A stretch of DNA of 64,000 nucleotides from Hymenobacter sp. 15J16-1T3B (GTDB lineage: Bacteria; Bacteroidota; Bacteroidia; Cytophagales; Hymenobacteraceae): the NCBI RefSeq assembly GCF_020711235.1, contig NZ_JAJFAV010000002.1, positions 496,001 through 560,000 of the forward strand, given 5' to 3'. This document shows positions 19,480-42,463 of this stretch, one piece after another (positions within the stretch are counted from its first letter, which is position 1; every line of letters begins with the position of its first letter). Below the pieces are notes generated by a model, which saw nothing but the letters and a program-made list of their open reading frames with translations, searched no databases and was not told the origin of the DNA. A program made the position numbers and the translations under genes.

Positions 19480-19491
19480 TGACAAAAGTCA
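19480..19491 (+). promoter_or_regulatory. CRP/FNR-like palindrome, site A
   Basis: TGACAAAAGTCA (TGAC-N4-GTCA) lies in the 208-bp gap before the BON-USP-Mla operon. Its centre is 58.5 bp before the last G of a CATCTTTG box. TGAC/GTCA half-sites spaced by four bases resemble CRP/FNR-superfamily sites. Related sites are at 29399, 36912, 38078 and 42452. Confidence 0.6.
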
Positions 19492-19536
19492 TGGCCGGGC
19501 ATAACGAGCGTCATGGCCGGCCGCGCCGGCGCGGGG

Positions 19537-19544
19537 CATCTTTG
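19537..19544 (+). promoter_or_regulatory. Bacteroidota-type -7 box for the BON-USP-Mla operon
   Basis: CATCTTTG fits TAnnTTTG except at the first position. It lies 49 bases before the BON gene start. No upstream TTTG (-33) element is visible, which suits activator dependence. An identical octamer is found on the minus strand at 36859-36866. Confidence 0.5.
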
Positions 19545-19593
19545 GCTTGCTGGCGGCCCATTCGCGGGGCGCCGGGCTAACGCCGAAACTGCC

Positions 19594-21045
19594 ATGGATT
19601 CGCTCGATCTTCGCCAAGAAACCGATGTGCTGGCTGACCGCGACATCACGGCCGCCGTGGAGCGCCTGCTGGCGTGCAAACAAGGGGTGGCCGCCCACCT
19701 CATCGACGTAAGCACCGCGGCGGGCATCACCACGCTCAGCGGCTGTACCGACTCCCTGCTGGCCCGCGACCGGGCCGAGGAAATAGCCCGGGCCGTGCGC
19801 GGGGTGCGCGGCGTCGTCAACGCCGTGGACGTGCGCGCCAGCGGCCTGCCCGATGCCACGCTGCGCCACGACGTGGAAGAAGCGCTGCGGCAAGACGCGG
19901 TGGCGGGCGCCTTCGACCTCAGCTGCACAGCGCGCGAAGGCGTGGTAATGCTGCTGGGCGAGGTGGCCTGCTGGTCCGAAAAAGAGCTGGCCCTGCGCCT
20001 GGCCCGGGGCGTGCGGGGCGTGCGCGGCCTCGAAGACCACCTGCGCTGCCGCCCCGCGCCCGCAGACCGACCGGCCGCGGCGCTGGCTGCTGACATCGAG
20101 GAGCGGCTGGCCTGGGACGTACACATCAACGGTGCCCAAGTGCAGGTGCTGGCCCATGACAACGGCGCCGTGGAGCTCAGCGGCGCGGTGGCCAGCGCCG
20201 CCGAACACCATCTCGCCCTGCGCGCGGCCTGGCTGGCCGGGGCCACCCGCGTGGAGGCCGCCGCGCTGCGCGTGGATCCGGCGGCGGCCAGCGCCGAGGT
20301 GGAGGGCGACAAATACCTCCCGAAATCCGACGAGGCGCTGGAGCAGGCCATTCGCACGTGCTGCCGCCACGACGCGCGCATCGGGGCCAGCCAGCCGGAC
20401 GTGGAGGTGCGCCGCGGCCGCGTGGCCCTGCGGGGCGCCGTGGGCAGCCTGCGGGCCCGGCACGCCGCCGAGCAGGTCGCCAGCGCTGTGGTGGGCGTGC
20501 GGCGGGTCGATAACTACTTGCGCGTGCGCCCCGCCCATTGCACCGCCGACGCGGAGCTGCAGCGCTGCGGCCAAGCCGCCCTGCAACGCGACGCCTACCT
20601 GCACCGCCACGCGCTGGAGGTGGTGGTCAGCAACGGCCGCGTGGGCCTGAGCGGCGCGGTGGACTCGGTGTTTGAACGGCAGCACGCCGAGCAGGTCGTG
20701 GCCAGCCTGCAGGGCGTGGTGGCCATCGACAACCGGCTGACGGTGCCGGCCGGAGCCGCCTTCGCCGAGGCGGACCACGCGGCCTGCCAGGTGGCCTACG
20801 CCGAGCCGTTGCCCGGCCGCCCCCTCGGCGACGCCGAAACCAAGCAGCGCATCCGGCAGCAGCTGTACTGGACGCCGGGCCTGCACGAGCAGGCCATCCG
20901 CGTGGGCCTGAAGCGGGGACGCGCCATCCTCGCCGGCACCGTGGACACGCCCCTGCAGCGGCAGCTGGCCACGTTGTGCGCCTACGAGGGCGGGGCGCAG
21001 GTCGTCGACAACCAGCTACACGTGCGCACCGACGCCCACGACTAG
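19594..21045 (+). CDS. Six-BON-domain protein, cytoplasmic
   Basis: A 483-residue protein built of six BON-like repeats (about 20-85, 90-155, 160-230, 250-315, 320-385 and 415-480). Each has the alternating pattern ...G.V.L.G.V.......A......GV..V.N.L. The first repeat carries LSGCTDSLLARDRAEEIARAVRGVRGVVNAV, nearly shared with the BON protein at 25549. BON domains in other bacteria (OsmY, Kbp) bind lipid surfaces or potassium, but usually in the periplasm; no signal peptide or membrane segment is seen here, so this one should be cytosolic. I start at MDSLDLRQETD because the longer frame has no support. It is the first gene of the operon with a USP and the Mla genes. Function is unknown; an envelope or osmotic stress role is a guess. 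Confidence 0.85.
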   Translation: MDSLDLRQETDVLADRDITAAVERLLACKQGVAAHLIDVSTAAGITTLSGCTDSLLARDRAEEIARAVRGVRGVVNAVDVRASGLPDATLRHDVEEALRQDAVAGAFDLSCTAREGVVMLLGEVACWSEKELALRLARGVRGVRGLEDHLRCRPAPADRPAAALAADIEERLAWDVHINGAQVQVLAHDNGAVELSGAVASAAEHHLALRAAWLAGATRVEAAALRVDPAAASAEVEGDKYLPKSDEALEQAIRTCCRHDARIGASQPDVEVRRGRVALRGAVGSLRARHAAEQVASAVVGVRRVDNYLRVRPAHCTADAELQRCGQAALQRDAYLHRHALEVVVSNGRVGLSGAVDSVFERQHAEQVVASLQGVVAIDNRLTVPAGAAFAEADHAACQVAYAEPLPGRPLGDAETKQRIRQQLYWTPGLHEQAIRVGLKRGRAILAGTVDTPLQRQLATLCAYEGGAQVVDNQLHVRTDAHD

Positions 21046-21090
21046 TTCCCAATCCCATTGGTGGCCCCCGCCGTCATTCCCCGAAACACC

Positions 21091-21975
21091 ATGAAACCCA
21101 CGTTTGTCGTGCTGACGGATTTGTCGCCCCGCGCTTTTCGGGCGGCCTATTTTGCGGCGGTGCTGGCCGCGGCGGTGGGCGCCGAGCTGCGGCTGCTCCA
21201 CCTCGAAGCCGAGGCGGTTATCGAGCCGGAATTCGGCATGCTGCCGCTGCCCGCCGACTACCTCGACCAGCAGCAGCGCGACGCCACGACGGCCTTGGCC
21301 GAACTGGTGCGGCTGCTGCCGGCCCCGGCGCAGGTGCAACCCCGCCGCGGCGCCCTCGCCGACACGCTGCAAGAGTTGGTGCGCCACGAGCCGCCCGCGC
21401 TGCTGGTGCTCAGCTACGCCGCCGGCTACGACCTATTCGACCAGCTGCTCCACAACTACGCCCTGCCAGCCCTGCGCGACACCCACCTGCCGCTGCTGCT
21501 GGTGCCCGAAGATGCCGCCCAGGACCCCGCCCCGCCGCGCCGGGTGGCGCTGGCCGTCGACGGAGAGTACTTCCGACTCAGCCCCGAAGCCTGCCGCACC
21601 GCCGCCCTGCTCCAGCAGTGCCAGCCTGAGTACACCGTGGTGCACGTGGCCGAGCCCAGCGGCCCGGCCCTCGACATGCGTAGTGCCCTCCGCACCGCCC
21701 GCAGCGGCGGGCTGCTGCCCGCCGACGCCCCCGACAGCACCTACCTGCTCCGCCACGACTCGCGCGGCGGGGGCTTGGCGCAGGCTGCCACAGACACCCA
21801 GGCCGACCTACTGGTACTGGTGAGCCGGCCGCGCAGCCTGCTGGCCGAGCTGCTGCCCTGCACCCTGGCCGCCACCGTGGCGCGTCACTGCCCGGTGCCC
21901 GTGCTGCTGCTGCCCGCCGTGGCCGTGCCCGTGCCGACGGCGGCCTACCCGGCCTACGACGGCCTGCGGTACTGA
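21091..21975 (+). CDS. Universal stress protein, two UspA domains
   Basis: A 294-residue double-domain Usp. Domain 1 begins TFVVLTDLSPRAFRAAYFAAVLA and has LVLSYAAGYDLFDQLL and PLLLVPED; domain 2 begins RRVALAVDGEYF and ends LVLVSRPRSLLAELLPCTLAATVARHCPVPVLLLP. The canonical ATP-binding motif G-x2-G-x9-G(S/T) is not preserved, as in the five other Usps of this island, and this copy also lacks their FHRSVT motif. Usp proteins act in starvation, oxygen and redox stress. The gene starts 45 bases after the BON gene and 60 bases before mlaE, so it is probably in the same operon. Start is the ATG at 21091. Confidence 0.88.
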   Translation: MKPTFVVLTDLSPRAFRAAYFAAVLAAAVGAELRLLHLEAEAVIEPEFGMLPLPADYLDQQQRDATTALAELVRLLPAPAQVQPRRGALADTLQELVRHEPPALLVLSYAAGYDLFDQLLHNYALPALRDTHLPLLLVPEDAAQDPAPPRRVALAVDGEYFRLSPEACRTAALLQQCQPEYTVVHVAEPSGPALDMRSALRTARSGGLLPADAPDSTYLLRHDSRGGGLAQAATDTQADLLVLVSRPRSLLAELLPCTLAATVARHCPVPVLLLPAVAVPVPTAAYPAYDGLRY

Positions 21976-22035: not shown

Positions 22036-22794
22036 GTGCCCAACTACCCCATTTTGGCCGAAGCCGGCGGCATGGCCCACTTTGCCGGCCGCTTTTTTCG
22101 CGACGGGTTTCGCCCCCGCTACGAGGTGAGCGAGTGGCTTTACCAGTGCTACGTCATCGGCTACCAGTCGCTGCCGCTGGTGGGCGTGACAGGCTTCATC
22201 ATGGGCATTGTGCTTACGCTGCAGAGTCGGCCGACCATGGCGCAGTTCGGCGCCGAGTCGTGGATACCGGCCATGGTGGGGCTGACCATTATCCGCGAGA
22301 TGGGACCCATCATCACCGCCTTGATTTTTGCCGGCAAAATCGGCTCCAGCATCGGGGCCGAGCTGGGCTCCATGCGCGTCACGGAGCAAATCGACGCCAT
22401 GGAAGTGTCGGGCACCAACCCGTTCAAGTACCTGGTTGTGACGCGGGTGCTGGCTACCACGCTGATGCTACCGGTGCTCACGCTGCTGGCCGACGCTATT
22501 GCCCTCTACGCCTCCTACATCGGGCTGAACATGCGCGGGGTGACCACGCTGGCGCTGTTCGTCAACAACGTGCTGTCGCGCTTGGCGTTCGGCGACGTGC
22601 TCCCGGCCTTCATCAAGACGTTCTTCTTCGGCTTCGCGGTGGGGCTGATCGGTTGCTACAAGGGCTTCTACGCCGACAAGGGCACCGAGGGCGTGGGGCA
22701 GGCAGCCAACTCGGCCGTGGTGGTGTCCTCGCTGGTCATCTTCATTCTCGACCTGGTGGCCGTGCAACTCACCGGCCTGCTGGGCCTCAACTAA
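22036..22794 (+). CDS. mlaE: MlaE-family ABC transporter permease
   Basis: A 252-residue inner membrane permease of the MlaE/YrbE family, with about five membrane segments. Hallmarks are GVTGFIMGIVLTLQSRPTMAQFGAE, REMGPIITALIFAGKIGSSIGAELGSMRVTEQIDAMEVSGTNPFKYLVVTRVLA and the GFYADKGTEGVGQAANSAVV tail. It works with the ATPase and Mce-domain protein encoded next to move lipids between membranes. The start is a GTG. Only these three components are present; no MlaB or MlaC gene is adjacent, as is common outside Proteobacteria. Confidence 0.95.
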   Translation: MPNYPILAEAGGMAHFAGRFFRDGFRPRYEVSEWLYQCYVIGYQSLPLVGVTGFIMGIVLTLQSRPTMAQFGAESWIPAMVGLTIIREMGPIITALIFAGKIGSSIGAELGSMRVTEQIDAMEVSGTNPFKYLVVTRVLATTLMLPVLTLLADAIALYASYIGLNMRGVTTLALFVNNVLSRLAFGDVLPAFIKTFFFGFAVGLIGCYKGFYADKGTEGVGQAANSAVVVSSLVIFILDLVAVQLTGLLGLN

Positions 22795-22804: not shown

Positions 22805-23599
22805 ATGCAGCCCGACCCATCCCTCGCTCCCACACCCGCCGCGCCGCCGGCCCGCCTGCCCGTGGCGCCGGCCGAGCCGGTGCTGATGGTGGAGCACGTC
22901 GACAAGTCCTTCGGCGACAACCACGTGCTGCGCGACTTTTCGCTCGCGCTGCACCGGGGCGAAAACGTGGTGGTGCTCGGCAAGTCGGGCTCGGGCAAGT
23001 CGGTGCTCATCAAGTGCATCATCGGCCTGCTGCTGCCCGACGCGGGCCGCATCACGGTGCTCGGGCAGGACGTGACGGGGCTGGGGCACCAGCAAATGGA
23101 CGAGCTGCGCGCCCGCGTGGGCTTTCTGTTTCAGAGCAACGCGCTCTACGATTCGATGACCGTGCGCGAAAACCTGTTGTTTCCGCTGCGCCGCCACTGG
23201 CTCCGCCACCGCCGCGCCGAGGAAGACGCGCTGGTGCGCGAGGTACTCGACGACGTGGGCCTGGCCCACACGGCCACGCTGATGCCGGCCGAGCTGTCGG
23301 GGGGCATGCGCAAGCGCATTGCCCTGGCCCGCACGCTTATCCTGCGCCCCGACATCATCCTCTACGACGAGCCCACCACCGGCCTCGACCCGGTGACTTC
23401 GCGCGAAATCAGCCACCTGATCCGGGCGGTACAGCAGAAATACAACGCCTCGGCCCTGATCATTTCGCACGACATGAGCTGCGTGCGCCTCACCGCCGAC
23501 CGCGTGGCCCTGCTACTCGACGGCCGCTGCTACGCCGACGGCCGCTACGAGGAGCTGGCCGCCAGCGCCGACCCGCGCATCCACGAATTCTTCGCCTAG
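22805..23599 (+). CDS. mlaF: MlaF-family ABC transporter ATP-binding protein
   Basis: A 264-residue ATPase with Walker A GKSGSGKS (59-66), Q-loop LFQSNALYDSMTV, signature LSGGMRKRIALARTL and Walker B ILYDEPTTGLDP, then the switch His in IISHDM. The LSGGMRKR and YDSMTV forms are typical of MlaF. It powers the lipid transport complex with the MlaE and Mce proteins. It starts 10 bases after the mlaE stop. Confidence 0.95.
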   Translation: MQPDPSLAPTPAAPPARLPVAPAEPVLMVEHVDKSFGDNHVLRDFSLALHRGENVVVLGKSGSGKSVLIKCIIGLLLPDAGRITVLGQDVTGLGHQQMDELRARVGFLFQSNALYDSMTVRENLLFPLRRHWLRHRRAEEDALVREVLDDVGLAHTATLMPAELSGGMRKRIALARTLILRPDIILYDEPTTGLDPVTSREISHLIRAVQQKYNASALIISHDMSCVRLTADRVALLLDGRCYADGRYEELAASADPRIHEFFA

Positions 23600-23613
23600 A
23601 TAGCCCGTTCGTT

Positions 23614-24606
23614 ATGTCCCAACGCACCGCCGCCAACCACGTCCGCCTCGGCCTGTTTGTGCTGGCCGGCTTGGCCTGCCTGGTCGTCACGCTGTTTTTG
23701 CTCGGCCGCCAGCAAAACCTGTTCAGCCGCAGCATGACGGTGCAGGCCGACTTCCGCAACGTGTCGGGCCTGCTCACCGGCAACAACGTGCGCCTGGGCG
23801 GCATCCCGGTGGGCACGGTGCGCCGCATCCAGCTCGTCAACGACAGCACCGTGCGGGTGACGATGAACCTGAACCGCGACGTGCAGCCCTTCGTGCGCCG
23901 CAACACGGTGGCCACCATCGGCACCGACGGGCTGGTGGGCAACACCATCATCAACCTGGCGGCCCAGCCCGGCGCGGCCCCGCCCGTGCAGCCCGGCGAC
24001 CGGCTGCCCGGCAGCAACCCCGTGGGCATCGACGAGATGCTGAGCACGCTGAACGTGTCGAACCGCAACCTCATCGGCATCACCCAGGACCTGCGCCAGA
24101 TAACGCGCAAGCTCAACGGCAGCGACGCCCTCTGGCAGCTGCTTGGCGACCAGGGCCTGGCCGCCGATGCCCGCCGCAGCCTGCGCAGCATGGCCACCGC
24201 CACCGCCCGCCTCGACGCCGCCGCCCGCGACGTGCAGCAGCTCACCGGCGGCGTGCGCCGGGGCCGGGGCGTGGCCGGCTACCTGCTCACCGACACGGCC
24301 TTCGCCGGCCAGCTGGGCCACGCCACCCGGCAGCTGGCCGGCACCTCCGATACGCTGGCCGCCACCCTGGCCGGGCTGAAGCGGCAGGTGCAAACCAAGC
24401 AAGGCCCGCTCAACACCCTGCTGGCCGACACCGCCTTCAGCCGGCAACTGCGCCAGAGCATGCAGCACGTGGAGCAGGGCACGGCCGGCTTCAGCCGGAG
24501 CATGGAGGCGCTGCAGCACAACGTGCTGGTGCGCGGCTACCTCAAGCGGCAGCAGAAAAAGCAGGCACGCGCCGCCCTCAGCGCCCGGCCGGGCGCGCAG
24601 CCCTAA
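23614..24606 (+). CDS. mlaD: MlaD-like Mce-domain substrate-binding protein
   Basis: A 330-residue protein with one N-terminal membrane anchor (LGLFVLAGLACLVVTLFLLG, about 12-31), an MCE domain (about 35-115: FRNVSGLLTGNNVRLGGIPVGTVRRI...GTDGLVGNTIINL) and a helical C-terminal part that should form the periplasmic tube. It is the lipid-handling partner of MlaE/MlaF. I start at MSQRTAANHV; the long frame reaching back into mlaF is a shadow. It is the last gene of the rightward operon and ends 21 bases before the oppositely oriented Usp gene. Confidence 0.93.
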   Translation: MSQRTAANHVRLGLFVLAGLACLVVTLFLLGRQQNLFSRSMTVQADFRNVSGLLTGNNVRLGGIPVGTVRRIQLVNDSTVRVTMNLNRDVQPFVRRNTVATIGTDGLVGNTIINLAAQPGAAPPVQPGDRLPGSNPVGIDEMLSTLNVSNRNLIGITQDLRQITRKLNGSDALWQLLGDQGLAADARRSLRSMATATARLDAAARDVQQLTGGVRRGRGVAGYLLTDTAFAGQLGHATRQLAGTSDTLAATLAGLKRQVQTKQGPLNTLLADTAFSRQLRQSMQHVEQGTAGFSRSMEALQHNVLVRGYLKRQQKKQARAALSARPGAQP

Positions 24607-24627: not shown

Positions 24628-25446
24628 TCAGTCCAGGGCCGGCAGCAGCAGCAGCGGCAGCGTGCTTTGGCTGATGAGCTGGGCCGTGACGCTGCGGTGA
24701 AACAGGCTGCCGAGCAGGCTGTGGCGCCGGGCCACGAGCACTACCAGGTCCGCGTCGGTTTCGGCTGCCCCTTCCAGAATGCCTTCGGCGGCGTGCGCGT
24801 GGTACACCACGTGCGGCTGGCTGTGGGCGGGCAAGGTGGCCACCCCGCTGCGCCGCACCGACTGCACCACGCGGTGGCTGGTGGCCGCGCCGGGGTCCGG
24901 CTGGTCGGTCACGTGCAGCACCAGCAGCTCGGCCGGCAGCTGGGCCTGCAGGGCCGGCAGCAGCTGCGGCGCGCTGCGCAGGGCAAACGGCTCCCCGTCG
25001 ACGGCGAGCAACAGCCGCTGGGGCAGGGTGCATTGCCAGCCCACCGTGGGCACGATGAGCAGCGGGTACGGCGCGTGGCGCAGCAGGTCGAGGGCGGCGC
25101 TAGTTACTACTTCGGCGGGCGCCGAGGCCGTGCCCGGCCGGCCGAGCACCAGCAGCAGCGGGTGGTGGTGACGCACAGCCTCGGCCACGGCTTCGGGCAG
25201 AAACTCTTCGGAGGTTTCGACCTGGGCGGGCACGGGCTGGCTGGCGGCCAGTTGCTGCAAGGCCTGCCGGGCCTGCCGCTCGCCGGGGCGGTGGTGGTAC
25301 CCGTCGGGGGCCAACAGGCCGTCGTGGCGCACGTGCAGCAGCACCAGGTGGGCCTGCAGCGGTACGGCCAGGGCCGCCGCGTAGGCCAGGGCCCGGTTGG
25401 ACACGGCCAAAAAATCGGTTAGGACAACAATGGCGGGCGAGGGCAT
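24628..25446 (-). CDS. Universal stress protein, two UspA domains
   Basis: A 272-residue tandem Usp. Domain 1 starts AIVVLTDFLAVSNRALAYAAALA, domain 2 starts QRLLLAVDGEPFALRSA. The C-terminal block is LVVLVARRHSLLGSLFHRSVTAQLISQSTLPLLLLP; the G-x2-G-x9-GS ATP motif is replaced by an RH...FHRSVT form found in five Usps here. It is the last gene of a leftward series (BON 28265, DUF2892, Usp 27100, BON 25549, this). The close gaps support one operon, read toward the end of mlaD. Start is the ATG at 25446. Confidence 0.88.
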   Translation of the reverse strand: MPSPAIVVLTDFLAVSNRALAYAAALAVPLQAHLVLLHVRHDGLLAPDGYHHRPGERQARQALQQLAASQPVPAQVETSEEFLPEAVAEAVRHHHPLLLVLGRPGTASAPAEVVTSAALDLLRHAPYPLLIVPTVGWQCTLPQRLLLAVDGEPFALRSAPQLLPALQAQLPAELLVLHVTDQPDPGAATSHRVVQSVRRSGVATLPAHSQPHVVYHAHAAEGILEGAAETDADLVVLVARRHSLLGSLFHRSVTAQLISQSTLPLLLLPALD

Positions 25447-25548
25447 GGCGGTAAGCAGAAAAGGGTGAAGAATCAGGCTGGCAGACCGGTGCCGCACAAG
25501 CCCGCCCGAGTCGCAAAAGGCAGCGGCACCGGGCGGGCCTGTGCGGCA

Positions 25549-26943
25549 TTAGGGTGCGCCAGCTAGGCGCAGGTGATTGTGCACTTCGCGGGCGCCGCAG
25601 AGCAGCGCCTCTTCGGTGGCCCGCTCCCGGGTCAGGCGGGTGTCGACGGTGCCGCTGAGCGTCACGCAGCCGTGGCGGACCTGCACGTCGATGTCCTGGT
25701 CGTGCAGCGGGGCCGACCAGTAGAAGTGGGTGTGCAGGCGCTGGGCCAGCTCGGCATCGGGCTCGGGGGGCGCAGCTGGGGCGGCCGGCGCCACCTGCAC
25801 CCGGTTGTCCACGGCGGCCACGCCCCGGATGCCCGCGGCCACTTCGCCGGCGCGGATCTGGTCGGCGGGCGAGGCCACTTCGCCCGCCAGGCGCACGTGG
25901 CCATCGTGCACGCTCACGGCAAAGGCGCACCGGCCCACGTAAGCGTCGCGGGCCAGCGCGGCGGCCACCCGCTGGCGCGTCTCATCGTCGGAAGCCAGGT
26001 AGTGCGAGCGAACCAGCAAGTGATTCTCGACGCCGACGACGCCCACCACGTTGCCCGCGTCCTGGGCGGCGGCGTGGTGGGCCTGCAGGTGGCCCACGGT
26101 GCCAAACAGCGTCACCTGACCCTGGCGCACGTTGACCTGCAGCGTGGCGACGAAGGGCGCCACCCGCGGGTCGAGGCGCAGCGCGTCGCGCACGGCCTGC
26201 TCGATGGCGCCGTCGGCCTGGGGCACCGCCCGCGGCGGGCGCAGGTGCGGGTCCAGCGCCCAGGCGGCCACCGTCAGCCCGCTGGCGTCGATGTGGGCGG
26301 CCCCGGCGGCGTAAGCCAGGTGCAGCAGCTGCTCCCGCTCGGCCAGGGAGCCGACCTGGCCAGACACCCGCACGCCGTGGCCCACGGGCTCGATGCTCAC
26401 CAGGTCGCTTTTCAGGCGCAGGTCCCAGGCCAGCAAGGTGCGCAGGCGGGCCACCAGGTGCACCGGCGCGGCTTCGGGCTGAGGGTGCAGCTGCAGGCGG
26501 GGGTGGATCTGCCGCACGCCGCGCACGCCCCGGAGCACCTGCAGCACCAGTTGCTGCTCGGCCCAGGAGTGCACCGTGCCTTCCACCGTTACTTCGCCCT
26601 GCTGCACCCGGCAGTGCACGGGGTAATCGGCCGTGGCGGCGTTGTCGTGCAGGGCCTGCTGAACGCTGCGCAACAGAACGGCGTCGGGCACGGGCTGGGT
26701 GCGCACCTCGATGGCGTTGACCACCCCGCGCACCCCGCGCACTTCCTTGGCAATGGCCTCGGCCCGTTCGCGGGCCAGCAGGTTGTCGGTGCAGCCCGCT
26801 AGCTGCACGATGCCCTCGTGGGTTTCCACGTCGAGCTGCTGCGACGTTACGCCCTTGCAGGTCAGAAACAGCAGCTCAACGGCCCGGGTAATATTCTGGT
26901 CGGCCACCCGCTCTTCGGGAGGCGCTAAGTCGGAGCGCAGCAT
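25549..26943 (-). CDS. Six-BON-domain protein, cytoplasmic
   Basis: A 464-residue paralogue of the BON protein at 19594, with six BON repeats and no signal peptide. Shared signature in repeat 1: LAGCTDNLLARERAEAIAKEVRGVRGVVNAIEV. Repeat 6 (HTHFYWSAPLHDQDIDV...LSGTVDTRLTRERATEEALL) parallels the last repeat of the 19594 protein (QLYWTPGLHEQAIRV...AGTVDTPLQRQLATLCAY), so both copies inherited the same repeat order. I start at MLRSDLAPPEERVADQN, which matches the N-terminus of its paralogue. The gene lies between two Usp genes in the leftward operon. Molecular role unknown. Confidence 0.85.
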   Translation of the reverse strand: MLRSDLAPPEERVADQNITRAVELLFLTCKGVTSQQLDVETHEGIVQLAGCTDNLLARERAEAIAKEVRGVRGVVNAIEVRTQPVPDAVLLRSVQQALHDNAATADYPVHCRVQQGEVTVEGTVHSWAEQQLVLQVLRGVRGVRQIHPRLQLHPQPEAAPVHLVARLRTLLAWDLRLKSDLVSIEPVGHGVRVSGQVGSLAEREQLLHLAYAAGAAHIDASGLTVAAWALDPHLRPPRAVPQADGAIEQAVRDALRLDPRVAPFVATLQVNVRQGQVTLFGTVGHLQAHHAAAQDAGNVVGVVGVENHLLVRSHYLASDDETRQRVAAALARDAYVGRCAFAVSVHDGHVRLAGEVASPADQIRAGEVAAGIRGVAAVDNRVQVAPAAPAAPPEPDAELAQRLHTHFYWSAPLHDQDIDVQVRHGCVTLSGTVDTRLTRERATEEALLCGAREVHNHLRLAGAP

Positions 26944-27099
26944 GACATGGGGACGGAATGACGGGTGAAAACAGCCCCGGCGCCCGGCGCAAGGCCGGCG
27001 GCCGGCAGCTCGGAGAGTTGTGGCAAAACGCACGCCCCTGGCCGCGGCCGTTCACGCCGCCGGCCGTGGGCCCGCAACAGCGGCCGGAGTACCGGCCGC

Positions 27100-29320: not shown

Positions 29321-29398
29321 GGGGTGAGCAACTAAAAAGACAGTCCCAAAATCGGCCAAACACCGCGCCGGTGCGATGATGCACGTTAGCTGACGGGG

Positions 29399-29410
29399 TG
29401 ATATATGTCA
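29399..29410. promoter_or_regulatory. CRP/FNR-like palindrome, site E, between divergent units
   Basis: TGATATATGTCA differs by one base from TGAC-N4-GTCA and lies in the 157-bp gap between the leftward BON gene and the rightward CPBP gene. On the plus strand a CATGTTTA box ends 36.5 bp from its centre; on the minus strand a TTTG ends 57.5 bp away. It may serve both directions. Confidence 0.45.
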
Positions 29411-34554: not shown

Positions 34555-34721
34555 GGGAGCTAGGGAGATGGTACGGCGGCCGGCCGAAGCGGACTGGCAA
34601 TGGGGAAGTATAGGCAAAAAGACGGCAACCACGCGGCGGCCGCTCCGCCGAAGCAGCGGCAGGCTTCGGCAGGACGGCCGCCGGGGAGGCGGAGGAAAGG
34701 CGCTCAGCGACTGGGCGCGGG

Positions 34722-35680: not shown

Positions 35681-36502
35681 CTAATCCAGGGCGGGCAGCA
35701 GCAGCAGCGGCAGCGGGCTCTGGCCGATGAGCTGGGCCACGACGCTGCGGTGAAACAGGCGGCTGAGCGAGGTGTGCCGCCGGGCTACGAGCACCAGCAG
35801 GTCGGCGCCTACTTCGGCCGCGCCCTGCAAAATGCCCTCGGCCGCGTCGGTGTGGGTAACGCAGTGGGGGTGGCAGTCGGCGGACAGCGGGGCCACCCCG
35901 CTGCGCTCCACTTCGCGCCGCACGCGCTGCTCGGCCGAGGCGCCCGCCGGCTCGGGCACCACGTGCAGAATGCTCAACGAGCCTCCGAGGGCCCCCAGCA
36001 GTTCCGGCACCAGGTGTTCGTTTTCATAAAGCGAAAACGGCTCCCCGTCGACGGCCAGGGCGAAGCGGCGCGGCGGAAACGCGCCCCAGCCCACGTGGGG
36101 CACCACGAGCAGCGGGCACGGCACGTGGCGCAGCACATCCTGGGCCGCGCCCACCACCACGGCCGTGGGCGTGACCTCGTCGGCGGGGCGGCTGAGCACC
36201 AGCAGCTGCGGCTGGTGCTGGTGCACGGCTTCGGCCACCGCCGCCGGCAGGTAGCCTTCCTCCACGTCCACTTGCGTGGGCACCGGCTGCGCGTCGGCCA
36301 GGGCGTTGAGGGCCTGCCGCAACTGGCCCGGACTGCGCCGCGCGGCTTCCGCCAGCTCGGGCGGGGCCAGCAGCTCGTCGTGGGGCACGTGCAGCAGCAC
36401 CAAGTGGGCCTGCAGCGGCACGGCCAGCCCGGCCGCGTAGGAAAGGGCCCGGTTCGACACGGCGTAGAAATCGGTGAGGACGACGATGGGGCGCGAGGGC
36501 AT
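35681..36502 (-). CDS. Universal stress protein, two UspA domains
   Basis: A 273-residue tandem Usp, closest in the window to the one at 24628: both start PSPAIVVLTDF/PSRPIVVLTDF ...AVSNRAL, both have PLQAHLVLLHV and VAEAVHQHQPQLLVL-type segments, and both end LVARRH..L..LFHRSV.AQLI.QS.LPLLLLPALD. This points to duplication between the two sub-clusters. The C-terminal block has Val instead of Thr (FHRSVVAQ). The ATG at 36502 is preceded by a roughly 98-bp gap after the small membrane ORF at 36601. Confidence 0.88.
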   Translation of the reverse strand: MPSRPIVVLTDFYAVSNRALSYAAGLAVPLQAHLVLLHVPHDELLAPPELAEAARRSPGQLRQALNALADAQPVPTQVDVEEGYLPAAVAEAVHQHQPQLLVLSRPADEVTPTAVVVGAAQDVLRHVPCPLLVVPHVGWGAFPPRRFALAVDGEPFSLYENEHLVPELLGALGGSLSILHVVPEPAGASAEQRVRREVERSGVAPLSADCHPHCVTHTDAAEGILQGAAEVGADLLVLVARRHTSLSRLFHRSVVAQLIGQSPLPLLLLPALD

Positions 36503-36600: not shown

Positions 36601-36699
36601 TTAGCGGAGCGGGGCCACCGACGCGGGGCGCAGGGCGTGCCAGGCGGCCGCCGCCAGGGTCAGCATCAGCACGGAAAACCAGAAAGTGGGCGTAACCAT
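36601..36699 (-). CDS. Possible 32-residue single-pass membrane peptide
   Basis: The reading frame from ATG 36699 to TAA 36601 gives MVTPTFWFSVLMLTLAAAAW followed by HALRPASVAPLR: one hydrophobic helix (about 4-20) and a short basic tail. It lies first in the group with the Usp at 35681, and upstream of it is a promoter-like CATCTTTG (36859-36866) and a CRP/FNR-like site. That a regulated promoter points at so small a frame makes it worth listing, but no homologue is known to me and it could also be only a leader. Confidence 0.4.
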   Translation of the reverse strand: MVTPTFWFSVLMLTLAAAAWHALRPASVAPLR

Positions 36700-36858: not shown

Positions 36859-36866
36859 CAAAGATG
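36859..36866 (-). promoter_or_regulatory. Bacteroidota-type -7 box
   Basis: On the minus strand this reads CATCTTTG, identical to the plus-strand box at 19537. It ends 58.5 bp from the centre of the palindrome at 36912, the same distance as in the 19480/19537 pair. It would drive the small ORF, two Usp genes and the P-type ATPase. Confidence 0.5.
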
Positions 36867-36911
36867 GCGGCGGAGGGCGGGTAAGGCGCTGACAACCATC
36901 ACGCCGGCGGG

Positions 36912-36923
36912 TGACATTGGTCA
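36912..36923 (-). promoter_or_regulatory. CRP/FNR-like palindrome, site B
   Basis: TGACATTGGTCA (TGAC-N4-GTCA, perfect half-sites), in the gap between the Usp at 37108 and the small ORF. It lies upstream, on the minus strand, of the CATCTTTG box at 36859. Confidence 0.6.
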
Positions 36924-37107: not shown

Positions 37108-37974
37108 TTATTCGTCGGAGGCGGGCAGCAGCAGCAGGGGCACCGGGCTGGCGTGCAGCAGGCGGCTGGTGACGCTGCGGTGAAACATGGCGCCCAGGAA
37201 GCTGCGCCGCCGGGCAATAACGACCAGCAGATTAGCCTCCGTCTGCTCGATAGCGCGCAGCAGCCCGGCCACCGGCGACACGTGGTGCATGGCCTCCACG
37301 GTGAGGCGGCCGGCCGCGGCCGCTAGTCCACTGGCCTGCACCTGGTGCAGCGCCGCCGCGCAGGCCTGGTCGTCTTCAATGGCCGATACCTTCACCACCG
37401 TCAGCGCGGGTTCGACCTGCGCCAGTAGCTGCCGGGCGGCCTCGGGGCGGCTGAGGGCAAACGGCTCCCCGTCGGCGGCCACCAGCACCTGGCGCGGGGG
37501 CACGGCGCCGCGGTAAGCCTCGGGCACGATGAGCAGCGGAAACTCGCCGCTGCGCAGCACTTCCCGCACGGCGGCGGCCACTTCGCCTTCCTCCGCCGGC
37601 TCGGCGGCCTGCCCGAGCACGAACACGGCCGGGGCGTAGCGCTGGGCCAGGGCGGCGGCCGTGCTCAGCTGCAAATCCGCCACCAGCTCCACCGTGGTGG
37701 GCACGTAGGTTTCGTCGGCCAGGGCCTGCACGGCCACCAGCAGCTCCCCGGCGCGCTCCTCGGTATCGGGGTAGAGCAGCTCTCCCTCGAGCACCGACAC
37801 CTCGCGCACGTGCAGCAGCACCAGCTGCGCGCCCAGCGGCGCGGCCAGCTCGGCCGCGTAGCGGATGGCGCGGCGGGCGGCGGGGAGGAAGTTCGTCAGC
37901 ACAATCAACGACAACGTGGGCGTGTCGGCGGCGGGCACGGCGGAGGGGGTAGCCTGGGGTTGGAGAGTTGTCAT
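37108..37974 (-). CDS. Universal stress protein, two UspA domains
   Basis: A 288-residue tandem Usp with a short polar N-terminal extension (MTTLQPQATPSAVPAADT). Domain 1 starts SLIVLTNFLPAARRAIRYAAELA, domain 2 RQVLVAADGEPFALSRPEA; the end is LLVVIARRRSFLGAMFHRSVTSRLLHASPVPLLLLP. Again MFHRSVT replaces the ATP-motif GS. A CRP/FNR-like site lies 104 bp upstream. It follows the L,D-transpeptidase gene in the same direction with a 99-bp gap. Confidence 0.87.
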   Translation of the reverse strand: MTTLQPQATPSAVPAADTPTLSLIVLTNFLPAARRAIRYAAELAAPLGAQLVLLHVREVSVLEGELLYPDTEERAGELLVAVQALADETYVPTTVELVADLQLSTAAALAQRYAPAVFVLGQAAEPAEEGEVAAAVREVLRSGEFPLLIVPEAYRGAVPPRQVLVAADGEPFALSRPEAARQLLAQVEPALTVVKVSAIEDDQACAAALHQVQASGLAAAAGRLTVEAMHHVSPVAGLLRAIEQTEANLLVVIARRRSFLGAMFHRSVTSRLLHASPVPLLLLPASDE

Positions 37975-38073
37975 GAGTGAAACAAGGTTGAGCCGGGGCA
38001 GCAGCCGGGCCGGCGACCTGCCGGGCCTTGGCGGATGCTGCCAGGTAAAGTACGCCGCGGCCCGGGGCCGTAG

Positions 38074-39564
38074 TCAATGACGGATGTCATGAAAGACAGC
38101 GGTAGTGGCCTGACTGTTAGCGTGATGATCCGCTGGGCAGCCGGGGCGCGCTCGGCCGAACAAAGCCTGGCGCAAGGCCTCGTCGCGGTGGTAGAGGTCG
38201 GCGTAAAAACGCAGCTGGCCCTGCTCCACCCCGCAGGTGGCGTAGCAGATGTGCAGCGGCAGCGGGCGGCGCAGCGCCACATTGCGCGGCCGGGACTGCC
38301 GGGCGCAGGCGGCTTCGTCGGGTAGGCGCACCGGGCGGCCGTCGCGGCGCAGCAGGTAAGCGGCCAGTTGCAGGGGCTGCTCGAGGCGGATGCAGCCGTG
38401 GCTAAAGGCGCGCTGCGGCTGCTCGAAAAACTGCCGCATGGGCGTGTCGTGCAAGTACACGTTGTAGGGGTTCGGAAACCGGAATACGATGTTGCCCAAG
38501 GCGTTGTCGCAGCCCGCCGATTGCCGGATTGAGTAGGCAAAGTTCTGCGCCGTGACCCGCTGCCAGTTCACCTGCCCGGGGTCGAGTACCTGTCCCTGCG
38601 CGGAGTACAGCGTATAGTTGTTGCGGGCCAAGTACCCCGCATCGCCCCGCAGCCGGGGCAAAATTTCCTTGGTGGCAATGGAGCGGGGCACGTGCCAGTC
38701 GGGGGCCAGCGTGAAGGACGTGATGCGGCTGCGCAGCGTGGGCGTGGGCGTCTGGGGTTTGCCGATAATCACGCGGTGGCGCCGGAGCACGGTGTCGCCC
38801 CGCACCACTTGCAGCTCAAAGGTGGGCAGGTTGATCAGCGCGTACTCCGAATCGGCCGGGGCCTGCCAGCGCCAGCGTTCCAGCGTCAGCGCTACCTGCT
38901 GGTAGCGGCGCTGCCCCGGCCCGCCGCTGACGGCCGCCGCCGAATCCTGCAGCCAGCGGGCCAGGGCCCGCTGCAGTTGCCGGTAGGCGCGGTGCGGAGG
39001 CTGGCAGGCCAGCACGGCCGCGGCCACGCGGCCGGCGGCCAACCCCGCGCGCAGCCGCTCGGCCGGGAGAAATGCGCCGCCCGGGCCGTGCTCCAGGGGC
39101 GAGGGCACGGCCGGGTGCAGCCGCCCGCGGTGCAGGTCGCGCATCAACGTGAGTACGGCGTCGCTCAGGGCCACGTCGAACCGGGCCCGGCGCTGTGCCT
39201 GGGCGCTGTCGGGGCGGGGCGCGAGCGAGTCGGCGGCGGCGCGCAAGTCGGCCAGGGCGTAGTAGGCCGGTTGCAGCCCGTAGGCCGGGGCGCGCGCCAG
39301 CAGGTCGAGCAGGTCTTCGGCCGCCGGCGTCAGCCCAGCGGCCTGCGTCCAGAGCGGGGCGGCGGCCGTATCGTAGAGCGCCCGCACCGCCGCCGGGCTT
39401 TGCCAGCTAGCCGTATCGGCCGGGTTGCCGCGCAGCAGCCGGCGGATGTGGCGGCTGACCGGATCGGTTGCGCGCGGCCGTGCCGAAGCCGACCGCTGCC
39501 GCTCGGCACAGGGCCGCGCCAGCAGCAGCAGGGCCGCGGTCAGCAGGAGCGCGGGGTACGACAC
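38074..39564 (-). CDS. L,D-transpeptidase, YcbB/LdtD-like
   Basis: A 496-residue periplasmic enzyme that forms 3-3 crosslinks in peptidoglycan or anchors proteins to it. A signal peptide (YPALLLTAALLLLARPCA, 3-20) precedes a helical scaffold domain (about 35-235) with a peptidoglycan-binding-like part, and the YkuD domain (about 240-400) carries the catalytic motif HGCIRLEQ with Cys391, plus NVYLHDTP. The scaffold and insertion length match the YcbB type. The GTG start at 39564, 4 bases after the dehydrogenase stop, gives a clean signal peptide; longer starts overlap that gene. L,D-crosslinking is linked to stationary phase and envelope stress, in line with its neighbours. Confidence 0.93.
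   Translation of the reverse strand: MSYPALLLTAALLLLARPCAERQRSASARPRATDPVSRHIRRLLRGNPADTASWQSPAAVRALYDTAAAPLWTQAAGLTPAAEDLLDLLARAPAYGLQPAYYALADLRAAADSLAPRPDSAQAQRRARFDVALSDAVLTLMRDLHRGRLHPAVPSPLEHGPGGAFLPAERLRAGLAAGRVAAAVLACQPPHRAYRQLQRALARWLQDSAAAVSGGPGQRRYQQVALTLERWRWQAPADSEYALINLPTFELQVVRGDTVLRRHRVIIGKPQTPTPTLRSRITSFTLAPDWHVPRSIATKEILPRLRGDAGYLARNNYTLYSAQGQVLDPGQVNWQRVTAQNFAYSIRQSAGCDNALGNIVFRFPNPYNVYLHDTPMRQFFEQPQRAFSHGCIRLEQPLQLAAYLLRRDGRPVRLPDEAACARQSRPRNVALRRPLPLHICYATCGVEQGQLRFYADLYHRDEALRQALFGRARPGCPADHHANSQATTAVFHDIRH
38078..38089 (-). promoter_or_regulatory. CRP/FNR-like palindrome, site C
   Basis: TGACGGATGTCA (TGAC-N4-GTCA) lies inside the last codons of the L,D-transpeptidase gene, upstream of the Usp gene at 37108-37974. 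On the minus strand a TACTTTAC box ends 39.5 bp from its centre. The overlap with coding sequence lowers certainty. Confidence 0.45.
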
Positions 39565-39568
39565 GGCG

Positions 39569-40585
39569 CTACGCCGGTTGGAGCGCCGGCGGGACCGGGC
39601 GCAGCTCGTGCGCCGCGGCCCGTCCCTGGGCCCAGGCGCTGAGGTTGGCCACGGTTGCGTCGGCAATGTTGGTCAGGGCTTCCCGGGTCAGGAAAGCCTG
39701 GTGGCCGGTCACCAGCACATTGGGCTGGGCCAGCAGCTCGTCGAGCAGCGGGTCGGCCGCCGGTTCGTGGGAGTGGTCTTGGAAGAACAGGCCCTTTTCG
39801 TGCTCGTACACGTCTAGGCCCAGGTAGGCCAGGTAACCCGAGCGCAGCGCCGCCAGGGCGGCGGCGGTATCGAGCACGCCGCCGCGGCCGGTGTTGAGGA
39901 GCATGGCCCCGGGCTTGAGGCGGGCCAGCCGCGCTGCGTCGAACAAGTAGCGCGTCTGCGGGGTGAGCGGCGCGTGCACCGTCACGATGTCGGCCTGGGC
40001 ACACAGCTCGTCAAGCCCGACGTAGCGCAGCCCGTAGCGCCGCACCAGTTGGGGGTTGGGCTGCACGTCGTAGCCCAGCAGGTGGCAGCCGAAGCCGTGC
40101 AGAATGCCCGCCAGCACCCCGCCGATGCGCCCGCAGCCCACGATGCCCACCGTCTTGCCATGCAGGTCGAAGCCCACCAGGTTGTCGAGGCAGAAGTTGT
40201 AGTCGCGCAGTTGCTGATCGGCCTGGCGCAGGCGGCGGTTGAGGGCCAGCAGCAAGGCCACGGTGTGCTCGGCAATGGCGTAGGGCGAATATTCCGGCAC
40301 GTGGGCCACGCGCAGGCCCAGGCGGGCCGCCGCCGCCAGGTCCACGTTGTCGTGGCCCGCGGCCCGCACGGCCACGTAGCGCACCCCGAGGGCGGCCAGG
40401 CGCTCCAGCACGGGCGCCGAAGCGTCGTCGCTGGTAAACAGGGCCACGGCCGGGCTGCCGTGGGCCAGCGCAACGGTTTCGGGGCCGAGGCGGTCGGCCA
40501 CGAAGTGCAGCTCGTGCTGCCGCCCAGCCGCAGCGGCGAGAAATGGCTGCTCAAAGGCATGGGCGCTATAAACGGTGACGTGCAT
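39569..40585 (-). CDS. ldhA: D-2-hydroxyacid dehydrogenase, fermentative D-lactate dehydrogenase-like
   Basis: A 338-residue NAD-dependent enzyme reducing pyruvate to D-lactate. Seen: VRAAGHDNVDL, EYSPYAIAEHTVALLLALNR, nucleotide motif GCGRIG (150-155), catalytic Arg234 in NTGRGGV, Glu near 263 in VYEHEKGLFF and His295 in VTGHQAFLT. The EHEKGLFF and GHQAFLT forms are those of LdhA rather than of phosphoglycerate or other hydroxyacid dehydrogenases. It would regenerate NAD+ when oxygen is short. I start at MHVTVYSAHAF. The L,D-transpeptidase gene follows after 4 bases. The 40586-40832 gap upstream holds no gene and no site that I see. Confidence 0.92.
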   Translation of the reverse strand: MHVTVYSAHAFEQPFLAAAAGRQHELHFVADRLGPETVALAHGSPAVALFTSDDASAPVLERLAALGVRYVAVRAAGHDNVDLAAAARLGLRVAHVPEYSPYAIAEHTVALLLALNRRLRQADQQLRDYNFCLDNLVGFDLHGKTVGIVGCGRIGGVLAGILHGFGCHLLGYDVQPNPQLVRRYGLRYVGLDELCAQADIVTVHAPLTPQTRYLFDAARLARLKPGAMLLNTGRGGVLDTAAALAALRSGYLAYLGLDVYEHEKGLFFQDHSHEPAADPLLDELLAQPNVLVTGHQAFLTREALTNIADATVANLSAWAQGRAAAHELRPVPPALQPA

Positions 40586-40832
40586 ACGACGGAGGATGGA
40601 AGAAGCGCCGGGCGTGGCCCCGACGGCAAGGAGTGAGTTGTAGTTGCTTGAGTGGGCTCTACTGCCAGCCCCAAGCGCCGGGGTGCTGGCGCGCAAGCGT
40701 TGGCAAGTGCAAGGGAGCCGGCTTCGCGCAGCAGTTTGCCACTGGCGGCACTCATTTCCGCAGGGTGGTTGCCGATGCCGTGCGCAGGCGTTGAAGCATT
40801 GCGGAGCTGAAAACCCGCGGTCCGGGCAGCTG

Positions 40833-42374
40833 CTACACGCCGGTGAAAAGGACCGCGGAGTCGCCGTAGTCGGGCACCACCACGTTGGGCCAGTGCGCGC
40901 CCTCGCGCAGGGCCAGGGCCAGACTGGCCGCGGCGGCCGGCTCGCCGTGCACCACAAACGTGCGCTTGGGCGGGTGCTGGAAGCCCTGCAGCCAGCGCAG
41001 CAGCTCGGTGCGGTCAGCGTGGGCCGAGAAGCCGTCGAGCTCGGCCACGTGGCAGCGCACCGGCACCCAGTCGCCGAACATTTTGATTTGCTGCTCCCCG
41101 TCCTGCAGGCGCCGGCCGCGGGTGCCCTCGGCCTGGTAGCCCACCAGTAGCAAGGTGTCCTGCGGGTGGGGCAGGCGGTGGTGCAGGTGGTGCACGATGC
41201 GCCCGCCCGTGCACATGCCACTGGCCGACAGGATGATGGCCGGCCCCGGCAGGCGGTTCAGGGCTTTCGACTGCTGCTGATCCGTCACAAACGTGAGCCC
41301 GTCGAAATGGAAGGGGTTGTCGGGGCCCAGGCGGTGGGCCGTGGGATGGTGGCCAAACAAGTGGGTGACCCGGATGCCCATGGGGCTGTCCACGTATACC
41401 GGCACCAGGGGCACGCGGCCTTCGCGGCGCAGCTTGCGCAGGTAGTACAGCAGCGTTTGGGTGCGGCCCACGGCAAAGGCGGCAATGAGCAGCACCCCAC
41501 CCCGGTCCAGCGCCGCGTTGACCACCCGCGCCAGCTCGGCTTCGGGGTCGGCCAGGCGCGTGTCCCGGTCGCCGTAGGTAGACTCGACCAGCAGCACGTC
41601 GGCCTCGGAAATGGTGGTCGGGTCGTACAGCACGGGGTTGTCGTAGCGGCCCAAGTCGCCGGAAAACACCAGTTTTTTTGCTTGGCGGGCGCCCTGCACC
41701 TGCATTTCCACGATGGCCGAGCCCAAAATGTGGCCCGCGTCGCGGAAGGTGACCTGCACGTGTTCGGCCACGGGCACCGGGGTGCCGTAGGGCACGGCGC
41801 GCAGCAGCAGCAGCACCCGCTCGGCGTCGGTCACTGAGTAGAGCGGCTGGGCCGGGTGGTGCTTGGAGTAGCCTTCCGCGTTGGCATACGCCGCTTCTTC
41901 TTCCTGCAGCCGGGCCGAGTCCAGCAGCATGATGCGCAGCAGATCGGCCGTGGCCTCGGTGCAGTAGATAGGGCCCTGAAAGCCGTCCTTCACGAGCCGG
42001 GGCAGGTAGCCGCTGTGGTCGATGTGGGCGTGGGTGAGCACCACTGCGTCCAGGTCGGCCGCGTCCACGGGCGGTTCGGTCCAGTTGCGCAGGCGTAGCT
42101 CTTTCAGGCCCTGAAACAGCCCGCAGTCGACCAGCAATTGCTGTTGGCGCGGGCCTTGGGTCAGGGTCAGCAGGTACTTGGAGCCGGTCACCGTCTGGGC
42201 GGCGCCCAGAAACGTGAGGCGTACGTCGAGACCCGCCGCGGCGGCCGCGGCTCCGAGCTCAACCTGCGACGCGGCGGGCGTAGCCGCGGCGGCCGTCAGG
42301 GGGGCGGCTGCAAAGCGCCCCGGCCACCCCGCGGCCGGATCGGTAACACTGGAAAAGGGCTGGGCAGTAGGCAT
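40833..42374 (-). CDS. MBL-fold/beta-CASP ribonuclease-like protein (CPSF73-like)
   Basis: A 513-residue predicted metal-dependent RNase. After a low-complexity Ala-rich start (about 1-48), the metallo-beta-lactamase core has the zinc motif HAHIDH (115-120), FRDAGHILGSA and FSGDLG; the beta-CASP domain has AFAVGRTQTLLYYL, SASGMCTGGRI and the RMMBL end ELDGFSAHADRTELLRWL and TFVVHGEP. All metal ligands are present. Relatives (Ysh1/CPSF73-type) process RNA. It is often found with Usp and D-lactate dehydrogenase genes in stress gene sets of other bacteria (my recollection, not checked). A CRP/FNR-like site at 42452 lies 78 bases upstream of the ATG. Confidence 0.93.
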   Translation of the reverse strand: MPTAQPFSSVTDPAAGWPGRFAAAPLTAAAATPAASQVELGAAAAAAGLDVRLTFLGAAQTVTGSKYLLTLTQGPRQQQLLVDCGLFQGLKELRLRNWTEPPVDAADLDAVVLTHAHIDHSGYLPRLVKDGFQGPIYCTEATADLLRIMLLDSARLQEEEAAYANAEGYSKHHPAQPLYSVTDAERVLLLLRAVPYGTPVPVAEHVQVTFRDAGHILGSAIVEMQVQGARQAKKLVFSGDLGRYDNPVLYDPTTISEADVLLVESTYGDRDTRLADPEAELARVVNAALDRGGVLLIAAFAVGRTQTLLYYLRKLRREGRVPLVPVYVDSPMGIRVTHLFGHHPTAHRLGPDNPFHFDGLTFVTDQQQSKALNRLPGPAIILSASGMCTGGRIVHHLHHRLPHPQDTLLLVGYQAEGTRGRRLQDGEQQIKMFGDWVPVRCHVAELDGFSAHADRTELLRWLQGFQHPPKRTFVVHGEPAAAASLALALREGAHWPNVVVPDYGDSAVLFTGV

Positions 42375-42451
42375 AAGCGCAGGCAGTGAAGGTCAACGAA
42401 GAATGTGCGCGACGACGGGGCAAGTATACCGGGGTGGTGGCGGGAAAAAGA

Positions 42452-42463
42452 TGACATAAATCA
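42452..42463 (-). promoter_or_regulatory. CRP/FNR-like palindrome, site D
   Basis: TGACATAAATCA has one full TGAC half and one ATCA half, as in hybrid CRP/FNR-type sites. On the minus strand a TATACTTG box (42421-42428) ends 36.5 bp from its centre, a class II-like position for the MBL gene promoter. Confidence 0.5.

Follow-up and report, generated by a model that had tools for sequence, protein, structure and literature searches.

Gene content of the island and its palindromic sites

The stretch of DNA analyzed here (hereafter, the window) consists of 64 000 nucleotides of a 6.33-Mb genome of the genus Hymenobacter (G000:C22:496001-560000) and contains an island of genes for universal stress proteins (USPs), BON-domain proteins and diverse other functions, with a set of palindromes in front of these genes. 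The island begins with a BON gene (19594), ends with an RNase gene (42374) and is flanked by a LacI-type regulator gene and by GH30 glycosidase genes. The genes, with starts assigned by a simple GC-frame caller except for the start at 19594, which was picked by eye, appear to form six transcription units (Table 1): BON-USP-MlaE-MlaF-MlaD (+), BON-YgaP-like-USP-BON-USP (-), CPBP-amidohydrolase (+), small open reading frame (ORF)-USP-USP-P-type ATPase (-), a single USP (-) and RNase-dehydrogenase-YkuD (-). One strong site lies upstream of each of the six, the one at 29399 being common to two divergent units, so that the description of these palindromes as marking the whole island, and the first gene of each unit, in an earlier note on this stretch is fair.

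The earlier note listed five 12-mers of the form TGAC-N4-GTCA. All five are found where they were reported and are intergenic (for 38078, see also Table 1), but the dyad is perfect only at 19480, 36912 and 38078; the site at 29399 has TGAT and that at 42452 has ATCA. These variants represent true degeneracy of the motif, TGAY and RTCA, and the fuller consensus is aTGAY-N4-RTCAt with an AT-rich center. Weak second sites at 19502, 36890 and 29377 had been overlooked. A dyad of TGA-containing half-sites with the spacing of FNR and FixK sites is the operator pattern of the CRP/FNR superfamily, to which the palindromes had already been likened, and binding by a protein of this superfamily is predicted.

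Table 1. Sites, -7 boxes and genes of the island, in window coordinates
Feature	Position	Strand	Remarks
Strong distal site TGACAAAAGTCA	19480..19491	+	Upstream of BON-USP-MlaE-MlaF-MlaD; held-out matrix rank 3
Weak proximal site TAACGAGCGTCA	19502..19513	+	Exactly 22 bp downstream of 19480
-7 box CATCTTTG	19537..19544	+	23 nt past proximal site; rank 1 of 55 offsets
BON-domain protein	19594..21045	+	Six BON stretches; Pfam BON 1.3e-69
Usp (universal stress protein)	21058..21975	+	
MlaE permease	22036..22794	+	
MlaF-like ABC ATPase	22805..23599	+	
MlaD-family protein	23596..24606	+	PF02470, 8.5e-17; 87.5% to G006
Usp	24628..25497	-	
BON-domain protein	25549..27033	-	
Usp	27100..27924	-	
Small membrane protein, YgaP-like transmembrane domain	28015..28227	-	PF11127, 3e-18; DUF2892 of the earlier note
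BON-domain protein	28265..29359	-	
Weak proximal site TAACGTGCATCA	29377..29388	-	Leftward unit; 22 bp from 29399
Shared site TGATATATGTCA	29399..29410	.	Between divergent BON (-) and CPBP (+) units; matrix rank 2
-7 box CATGTTTA	29434..29441	+	CPBP unit; 23 nt past 29399 site; rank 1 of 55
CPBP/Rce1-like membrane protease	29478..30329	+	
Amidohydrolase	30383..31807	+	
P-type cation ATPase	31879..35094	-	Longest ORF
Usp	34785..35606	-	Overlapped by longest ATPase ORF; 73% to same-place Usp in G006
Usp	35681..36502	-	
32-aa small ORF	36601..36699	-	First of unit; predicted ORF only
-7 box CATCTTTG	36859..36866	-	23 nt from proximal site; rank 1 of 55
Weak proximal site TGATGGTTGTCA	36890..36901	-	22 bp from 36912
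Strong distal site TGACCAATGTCA	36912..36923	-	Small ORF-USP-USP-ATPase unit; matrix rank 5
Usp	37108..37974	-	
-7 box region CGTACTTT (TACTTTAC on shift by 2)	38047..38054	-	Rank 1 of 55
L,D-transpeptidase (YkuD)	38074..39666	-	Last codons overlap site 38078
Single site TGACATCCGTCA	38078..38089	-	Upstream of Usp; matrix rank 4
D-2-hydroxyacid (lactate-type) dehydrogenase	39575..40585	-	PF02826, 6.1e-51; 76-84% to relatives
Metallo-beta-lactamase/beta-CASP RNase	40833..42374	-	
-7 box TATACTTG	42421..42428	-	23 nt from 42452 site; rank 1 of 55
Single site TGATTTATGTCA	42452..42463	-	Upstream of RNase-dehydrogenase-YkuD; matrix rank 1

Concentration of the motif in the island

The motif, which the earlier note suggested comparing with its frequency elsewhere, is far denser before the island genes than genome-wide. 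Perfect sites number 81 in the genome, compared with 33 for the reversed pattern, and three of them fall in the 23-kb island where 0.29 are expected (P 0.003). The AT-rich form TGAYWWWWRTCA occurs 18 times genome-wide, against one occurrence of the reversed control, with three copies in this island and three in a second BON/USP island (G000:C5:100000-113400), where together 0.10 would be expected (P 1.5e-9). The two islands make up 0.6% of the genome, yet hold 6 of the 18 sites; in the related genome G006, 6 of 17 such sites are inside its island (P 5e-9). The C5 island is partly decayed, with an internal stop in the BON match, and keeps its three strong sites.

A position matrix trained on 16 sites of genomes G002, G003 and G006, none from the genome studied here, assigned the five sites ranks 1-5 among all positions of the window (scores 27.2, 25.3, 20.7, 19.5 and 16.0); the training sites were chosen by eye using the motif of the earlier note, the test is thus held out but not motif-blind. 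The sixth-ranked position, 42682, is within a GH30 gene and scores 14.0. With one mismatch allowed, the window contains 22 matches compared with 13.9 +/- 3.7 in shuffled sequences, and 1 of 100 shuffles reached 22; this count, too weak alone, was dropped as a decisive test. One-mismatch counts are also inflated in places by 7-bp tandem-repeat arrays containing TGTCAGTTGTCA, such as those at L034:460-527 and 7731-7805 of H. jeollabukensis.

Promoter geometry

The sites are positioned with precision relative to the predicted promoters. In the window, which was held out, five of the six site orientations have a -7 box at 23 nt from the promoter-proximal site, an offset that ranks first among 55 (P about 4e-7, with two anchors each allowed; the classification of sites as single or paired was made by eye). 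Among other sites of the same genus, seven of eight rank first of 55 at 23 nt, these eight representing three orthologous promoters. Class II sites of CRP and FNR are centered at -41.5. The -7 box of Flavobacterium, TAnnTTTG, spans -12 to -5 (PMC9723704). Given this box and the 23-nt gap, the dyad would be centered at -41.5, the class II activator position.

The paired arrangement is recognizable across a larger set of 29 sites, many of which belong to orthologous promoters: the trinucleotide TCA is present at offset +20 in 16 of them, whereas none of the remaining 58 offsets has it in more than 3 sites. This TCA belongs to a second, weaker dyad located two helical turns (22 bp) downstream. 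Immediately outside TGA, the base is A in 19 of the 29 sites, G in 7, C in 2 and T in 1, and the strict FNR box TTGAT-N4-ATCAA, with its outer T and A, does not describe the set.

The same geometry is found at some further promoters. In G002, a similar site (TGATATTTGTCA on the gene strand, L137:3919), followed at 23 nt by the box GACTTTTG, has a CRP-like match on one side and a fatty acid hydroxylase gene on the other, and other CRP paralogs may use this geometry. Genomes G004 and G005, without a BON match, keep a promoter of the form TGACATAAATCA-23 nt-CATATTTG (L129:3433-4014 and L126:3640-4173), followed by a gene of about 180-190 aa without a Pfam match.

Conservation in relatives

Lack of conservation in relatives would have spoken against the motif, but it proved to be conserved. 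Homologs of the BON gene were detected in three of the seven other genomes of the genus, and the intergenic spaces of those islands contain sites of the same kind; the -7 box at 42421 and its gap are identical in G002, G003 and G006, and the YgaP-like small membrane protein (28015..28227) is conserved at 73-82% in four island loci. Within the 15 kb covered in G002, all that is left of the RNase gene is a C-terminal stretch of 19 residues (L033:11532-12850); the promoter TGATTTATGTCA-23-TATACTTG is still present before the dehydrogenase and YkuD genes despite this loss. An alignment of the RNase, used to scan named genomes, matched only 3 loci, and the Acidobacteria locus L142, covered by one ORF scan, contributed nothing to the results given here.

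In another genus of the same family (g5; 25 BON genes from 22 genomes), 21 of the 25 BON genes have a TGAY-N4-RTCA site at most 500 bp upstream of the match and 24 have one within 1.5 kb, whereas five control palindromes yield 0, 1, 0, 0 and 1 of 25 within 500 bp. Many of these promoters have a partner TCA 22 bp on and then, 23 nt after, a box such as GAAATTTG or GACTTTTG. Across the family, the BON gene is present in 26 of 150 genomes, and CRP/FNR genes are located inside or near the homologous islands of other species. Judged by sequence, a CRP/FNR-family activator almost certainly controls the island.

A receiver-CRP fusion and a FixL-like kinase as the candidate regulatory system

As the earlier note stated, the window encodes no such regulator: none of the eight HTH_Crp_2 matches of the genome (E<=1e-3) falls in C22:496001-560000. 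Three proteins pass the HTH_Crp_2 cut-off, one FNR-like (C22:340.7 kb) and two receiver-CRP fusions (REC-CRPs), denoted RECCRP_a (C2:85.5 kb) and RECCRP_b (C11:528.6 kb). RECCRP_a, a protein of 349 aa, contains the Pfam domains Response_reg, cNMP_binding and HTH_Crp_2, as does RECCRP_b; the former is present in all eight genomes of the genus and the latter was seen only in G000, G002 and G003. In an alignment of 50 REC-CRPs (one further locus gave no protein), the phosphorylation residues of the receiver (E, D, D, T and K, comprising the acid pair, phospho-Asp, Thr and Lys) and residues E and R of the DNA-reading helix are invariant in all 50. Residue 212 of FNR has a role in reading the base outside TGA; at this position, 43 of the 50 REC-CRPs have Ile rather than Ser, which fits the mostly-A outer base of the sites. 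REC-CRPs are found in 142 of 295 class-level genomes of Bacteroidia (E<=1e-60), spanning 77 of 156 genera.

The RECCRP_a gene overlaps a kinase gene whose product consists of PAS, HisKA and HATPase domains. The best PDB matches of the PAS domain are FixL of S. meliloti (5.6e-12) and FixL of B. japonicum, followed by DosP, and 13 of the 14 listed matches are heme-PAS sensors. The column of the proximal heme-ligand His is occupied by H in 36 of 37 aligned rows (8 of 55 loci gave no row, and a few rows share one genome). The sole exception is a second copy in G003 (L037:1094-3837, contig C8), a duplicate kinase/REC-CRP pair with Leu in place of the ligand, located near an extra BON/Mla cluster. 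A related histidine kinase is encoded in 29 of 30 small REC-CRP loci.

The motif is frequent near this pair of genes in Bacteroidia. In 19 REC-CRP neighborhoods of about 20 kb, there are 89 TGAY-N4-RTCA sites compared with 26.7 expected from genome density, and 14-34 sites for five other palindromes. Eight pairs of sites within 60 bp of each other occur in these neighborhoods, spread over 5 of the 19 loci, and the spacing is exactly 22 bp in all eight, whereas the control palindromes yield a single close pair, at 21 bp. As a raw count, Usp genes are present in 10 of the 19. Upstream of kinase/REC-CRP operons, the motif is found in 17 of 24 cases including the genome studied here (of 25 loci, L242, with the kinase on the opposite strand, was left out), compared with 0, 0, 0, 0 and 1 for the five control palindromes; these operons have 24 sites in all, where 0.7 are expected from the density in 19 genomes. 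In this genome, the operon carries TGATATTCGTCA 106 bp upstream of the probable start of the kinase gene. Such an arrangement would be expected of an autoregulated operon.

We put at about 0.7 the probability that the palindromes are sites of the activator REC-CRP, which, under a FixL-like oxygen-sensing kinase, would switch on the whole island. The signal is probably oxygen, judging by the homology of the sensor and of the targets. When oxygen falls, the kinase, through a PAS domain predicted to bind heme, would phosphorylate REC-CRP, and the phosphorylated, activated protein would bind TGAY-N4-RTCA before its own operon as well as before the USP, BON, Mla, ATPase, dehydrogenase and RNase genes. 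The strong site, or its weak partner 22 bp downstream, ends 23 nt before the -7 box, which would place a dimer at -41.5, the position from which class II CRP/FNR activators contact RNA polymerase; where the sites are paired, another dimer would be bound two turns upstream, on the same face. The earlier note proposed a single CRP/FNR-type regulator, perhaps responsive to redox state or oxygen. A regulator of this type with a link to oxygen is the best supported reading; 'single' is unproven because the genome also encodes an FNR-type protein that has most of the cysteines of the Fe-S cluster. The likely direct regulator is not a self-sensing FNR but a receiver-CRP fusion driven by a distinct sensor kinase.

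Several observations weigh against REC-CRP in this role. Its gene is outside the island of this genome and is also present in the BON-less Hymenobacter genomes G001, G004, G005 and G007, so that there is no phyletic match within the genus; the same four genomes contain 3, 11, 16 and 12 copies of TGAYWWWWRTCA, respectively, so that the motif is not special to island genomes. At the class level, genome-wide motif counts do not track REC-CRP, the median ratio of real to reversed-pattern control counts being 2.75 without and 2.62 with it (20 listed genomes each). A strict upstream site is missing from 7 of the 24 kinase/REC-CRP operons, and a FixL-like PAS domain was found in only 23 of the 30 small loci, many of which are cut short. 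The column of the FixL distal Arg is R in 13 of 37 rows, M in 13, L in 8 and other residues in 3, with R kept in this genome. The geometry has exceptions as well: the leftward unit of 29399 has a poor -7 box (rank 9 of 55), and only one of the three sites of the C5 island ranks first for a -7 box at 23 nt. Finally, an FNR-type gene is located in or near the island of G006, G093, G129, G111 and G073.

Alternative explanations

This last observation leads to the serious rival of REC-CRP, an FNR-type 4Fe-4S oxygen sensor that would bind the sites directly; we consider it unlikely to be the regulator in place of REC-CRP, although both may act on the same promoters. The FNR-type protein of this genome (237 aa) is encoded on the contig of the island, a relative, FNR-D, is inside the island of some species, and in G006 a perfect site lies between the FNR-type regulator and the BON gene (L039:10590). 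Its best PDB matches are the Crp/Fnr protein 2gau and then FNR, and its CxxC motif and fourth Cys align with those of FNR, the third being shifted by several positions. In five Hymenobacter genomes, the FNR gene is immediately followed by tandem sites with the 22-bp phasing and a box at 23 nt, so that this protein may read the same promoter architecture. However, of the FNR-types associated with islands, those of G006 and G111 have the CxxC motif, whereas those of G093, G129 and G073 (L173:11659-12357, L174:7884-8582 and L181:15364-16062) lack it and may therefore not use an Fe-S cluster for oxygen sensing; only 1 of the 29 sites has the outer T of TTGAT, namely the one beside the FNR gene; and G005 has FNR but no BON match. 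Within the family, 17 of the 26 BON-bearing genomes have a full-length FNR relative (E<=1e-60), a co-occurrence that was tried as a discriminator and does not settle the regulator. Nine genomes are without FNR (E<=1e-40), yet in six of them a strict site is retained no more than 500 bp from the BON gene. In eight of the nine, one to three REC-CRPs are the only HTH_Crp_2 proteins at E<=1e-8, the census being limited to proteins that pass this threshold; the ninth, G140, has one REC-CRP and two shorter CRP ORFs. In G020, G064, G089, G095 and G099, the REC-CRP and BON genes are on one contig, 3-27 kb apart. In G020, boxes at 23 nt accompany three sites, one each upstream of a BON-USP-ATPase unit, of a USP gene and of the RNase gene; the sites of the USP and the RNase correspond in location to 38078 and 42452 of the window.

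That RECCRP_b (helix ETVSR) rather than RECCRP_a is the island regulator in G000, G002 and G003 seems very unlikely. Among the eight genomes of the genus, it turned up only in those that have the BON island, and the one island genome from which it is missing, G006, has its own island FNR-type gene. Nevertheless, it covers only three of the four island genomes, Pfam detects no PAS domain in the kinase that precedes it, and sites of the same kind adjoin relatives of RECCRP_a across Bacteroidia. As for the motif being a chance set of AT-rich palindromes or a generic promoter feature, the one-mismatch count that barely exceeds the shuffles and the abundance of TGAY-N4-RTCA (307 sites genome-wide) agree with this reading, but it is already contradicted by the exact 23-nt and 22-bp phasing and is hardly tenable in view of the held-out ranks, the concentration in the islands and the g5 BON genes.

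Relation to known systems

The anaerobox consensus of FNR and Anr is TTGAT-N4-ATCAA. The sites described here share its TGAY-N4-RTCA core, the 4-bp center and the class II position, but differ in the outer base, mostly A instead of T, and in the second site 22 bp away; the likely reader differs from FNR in having Ile at the position of Ser212 and no CxxC motif. With the rhizobial FixL-FixJ-FixK cascade, the proposed system has in common a FixL-like PAS kinase, an output of the CRP/FNR type, sites of FixK/FNR geometry and the oxygen theme. By contrast, the receiver and the CRP unit are one protein here, so that the transcriptional step from FixJ to fixK would be skipped, and the kinase PAS varies at the distal residue.

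In gene content, the island resembles the lxa and DosR hypoxia loci, with USPs clustered with a BON gene. The DosR system comprises a sensor kinase and a response regulator; it shares with the island the theme of a USP-rich hypoxia regulon, but DosR is of the LuxR type and recognizes a different DNA site, whereas the output here would be of the CRP type. The low-oxygen-activated lxa locus of Burkholderia cenocepacia encodes six USPs and a BON protein, with a CRP-family regulator proposed; a homolog of this regulator is under FixLJ in B. dolosa, where FixLJ controls FixK, and the DosR dormancy regulon of mycobacteria is also named there (PMC6127331). The lxa locus is a similar design in another phylum, with USPs, BON and a CRP-type regulator common to both; the Hymenobacter island includes Mla genes, the beta-CASP RNase and the L,D-transpeptidase, which may set it apart from lxa. 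In Myxococcus xanthus, the NmpRSTU system places a heme-dependent sensor kinase above an oxygen-utilization regulon, with universal stress proteins mentioned, but its output is an NtrC-like regulator and its sensor a protoglobin (PMC11841059). In titles and the beginnings of abstracts from a single open library, we found no description of a FixL/REC-CRP system of Bacteroidota or of this island, and no account of how such Bacteroidota sense falling oxygen and enter a survival mode, although such reports may be in print elsewhere.

Extending the argument to the class, we judge it slightly better than an even bet that much of Bacteroidia runs a shortened FixL-FixJ-FixK circuit in which all of the following would hold: a FixL-like heme kinase directly phosphorylates a fusion of a FixJ receiver with a FixK/FNR-like activator; the fusion uses phased tandem class II sites (22-bp period, 23 nt to the -7 box) and activates its own operon and USP/BON hypoxia-survival islands; and certain lineages have recruited to these promoters an FNR-type protein that may or may not retain the Fe-S cysteines. 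The system proposed for the island would also be a third way, in addition to DosR and Anr/FixLJ-FixK, of placing USP-rich hypoxia loci under oxygen control in unrelated bacteria. The analysis yields a named candidate regulator, its sensor, a precise operator with its promoter geometry and a set of targets, all testable in one strain.

Additional features of the locus

The tandem boxes next to the FNR gene are TTTGATGAGAATCAAA and ATTGACCGCGGTCAT, 22 bp apart, with a -7-like box 23 nt on (L028:8507-8540, corresponding to C22:341.5 kb of this genome, and L132, L133, L134 and L135); the ORF that follows them in this genome encodes 126 aa without a Pfam match. Within the island, the true start of the P-type ATPase is probably lower than that of the longest ORF because a Usp gene overlaps the 5' part of the latter. 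SusC/SusD-type genes are found on both sides of the island (window positions 12932-17764 and 42674-52572), the LacI-type regulator gene occupies 18249-19385, and the three GH30 glycosidase genes flank the island on one side only.

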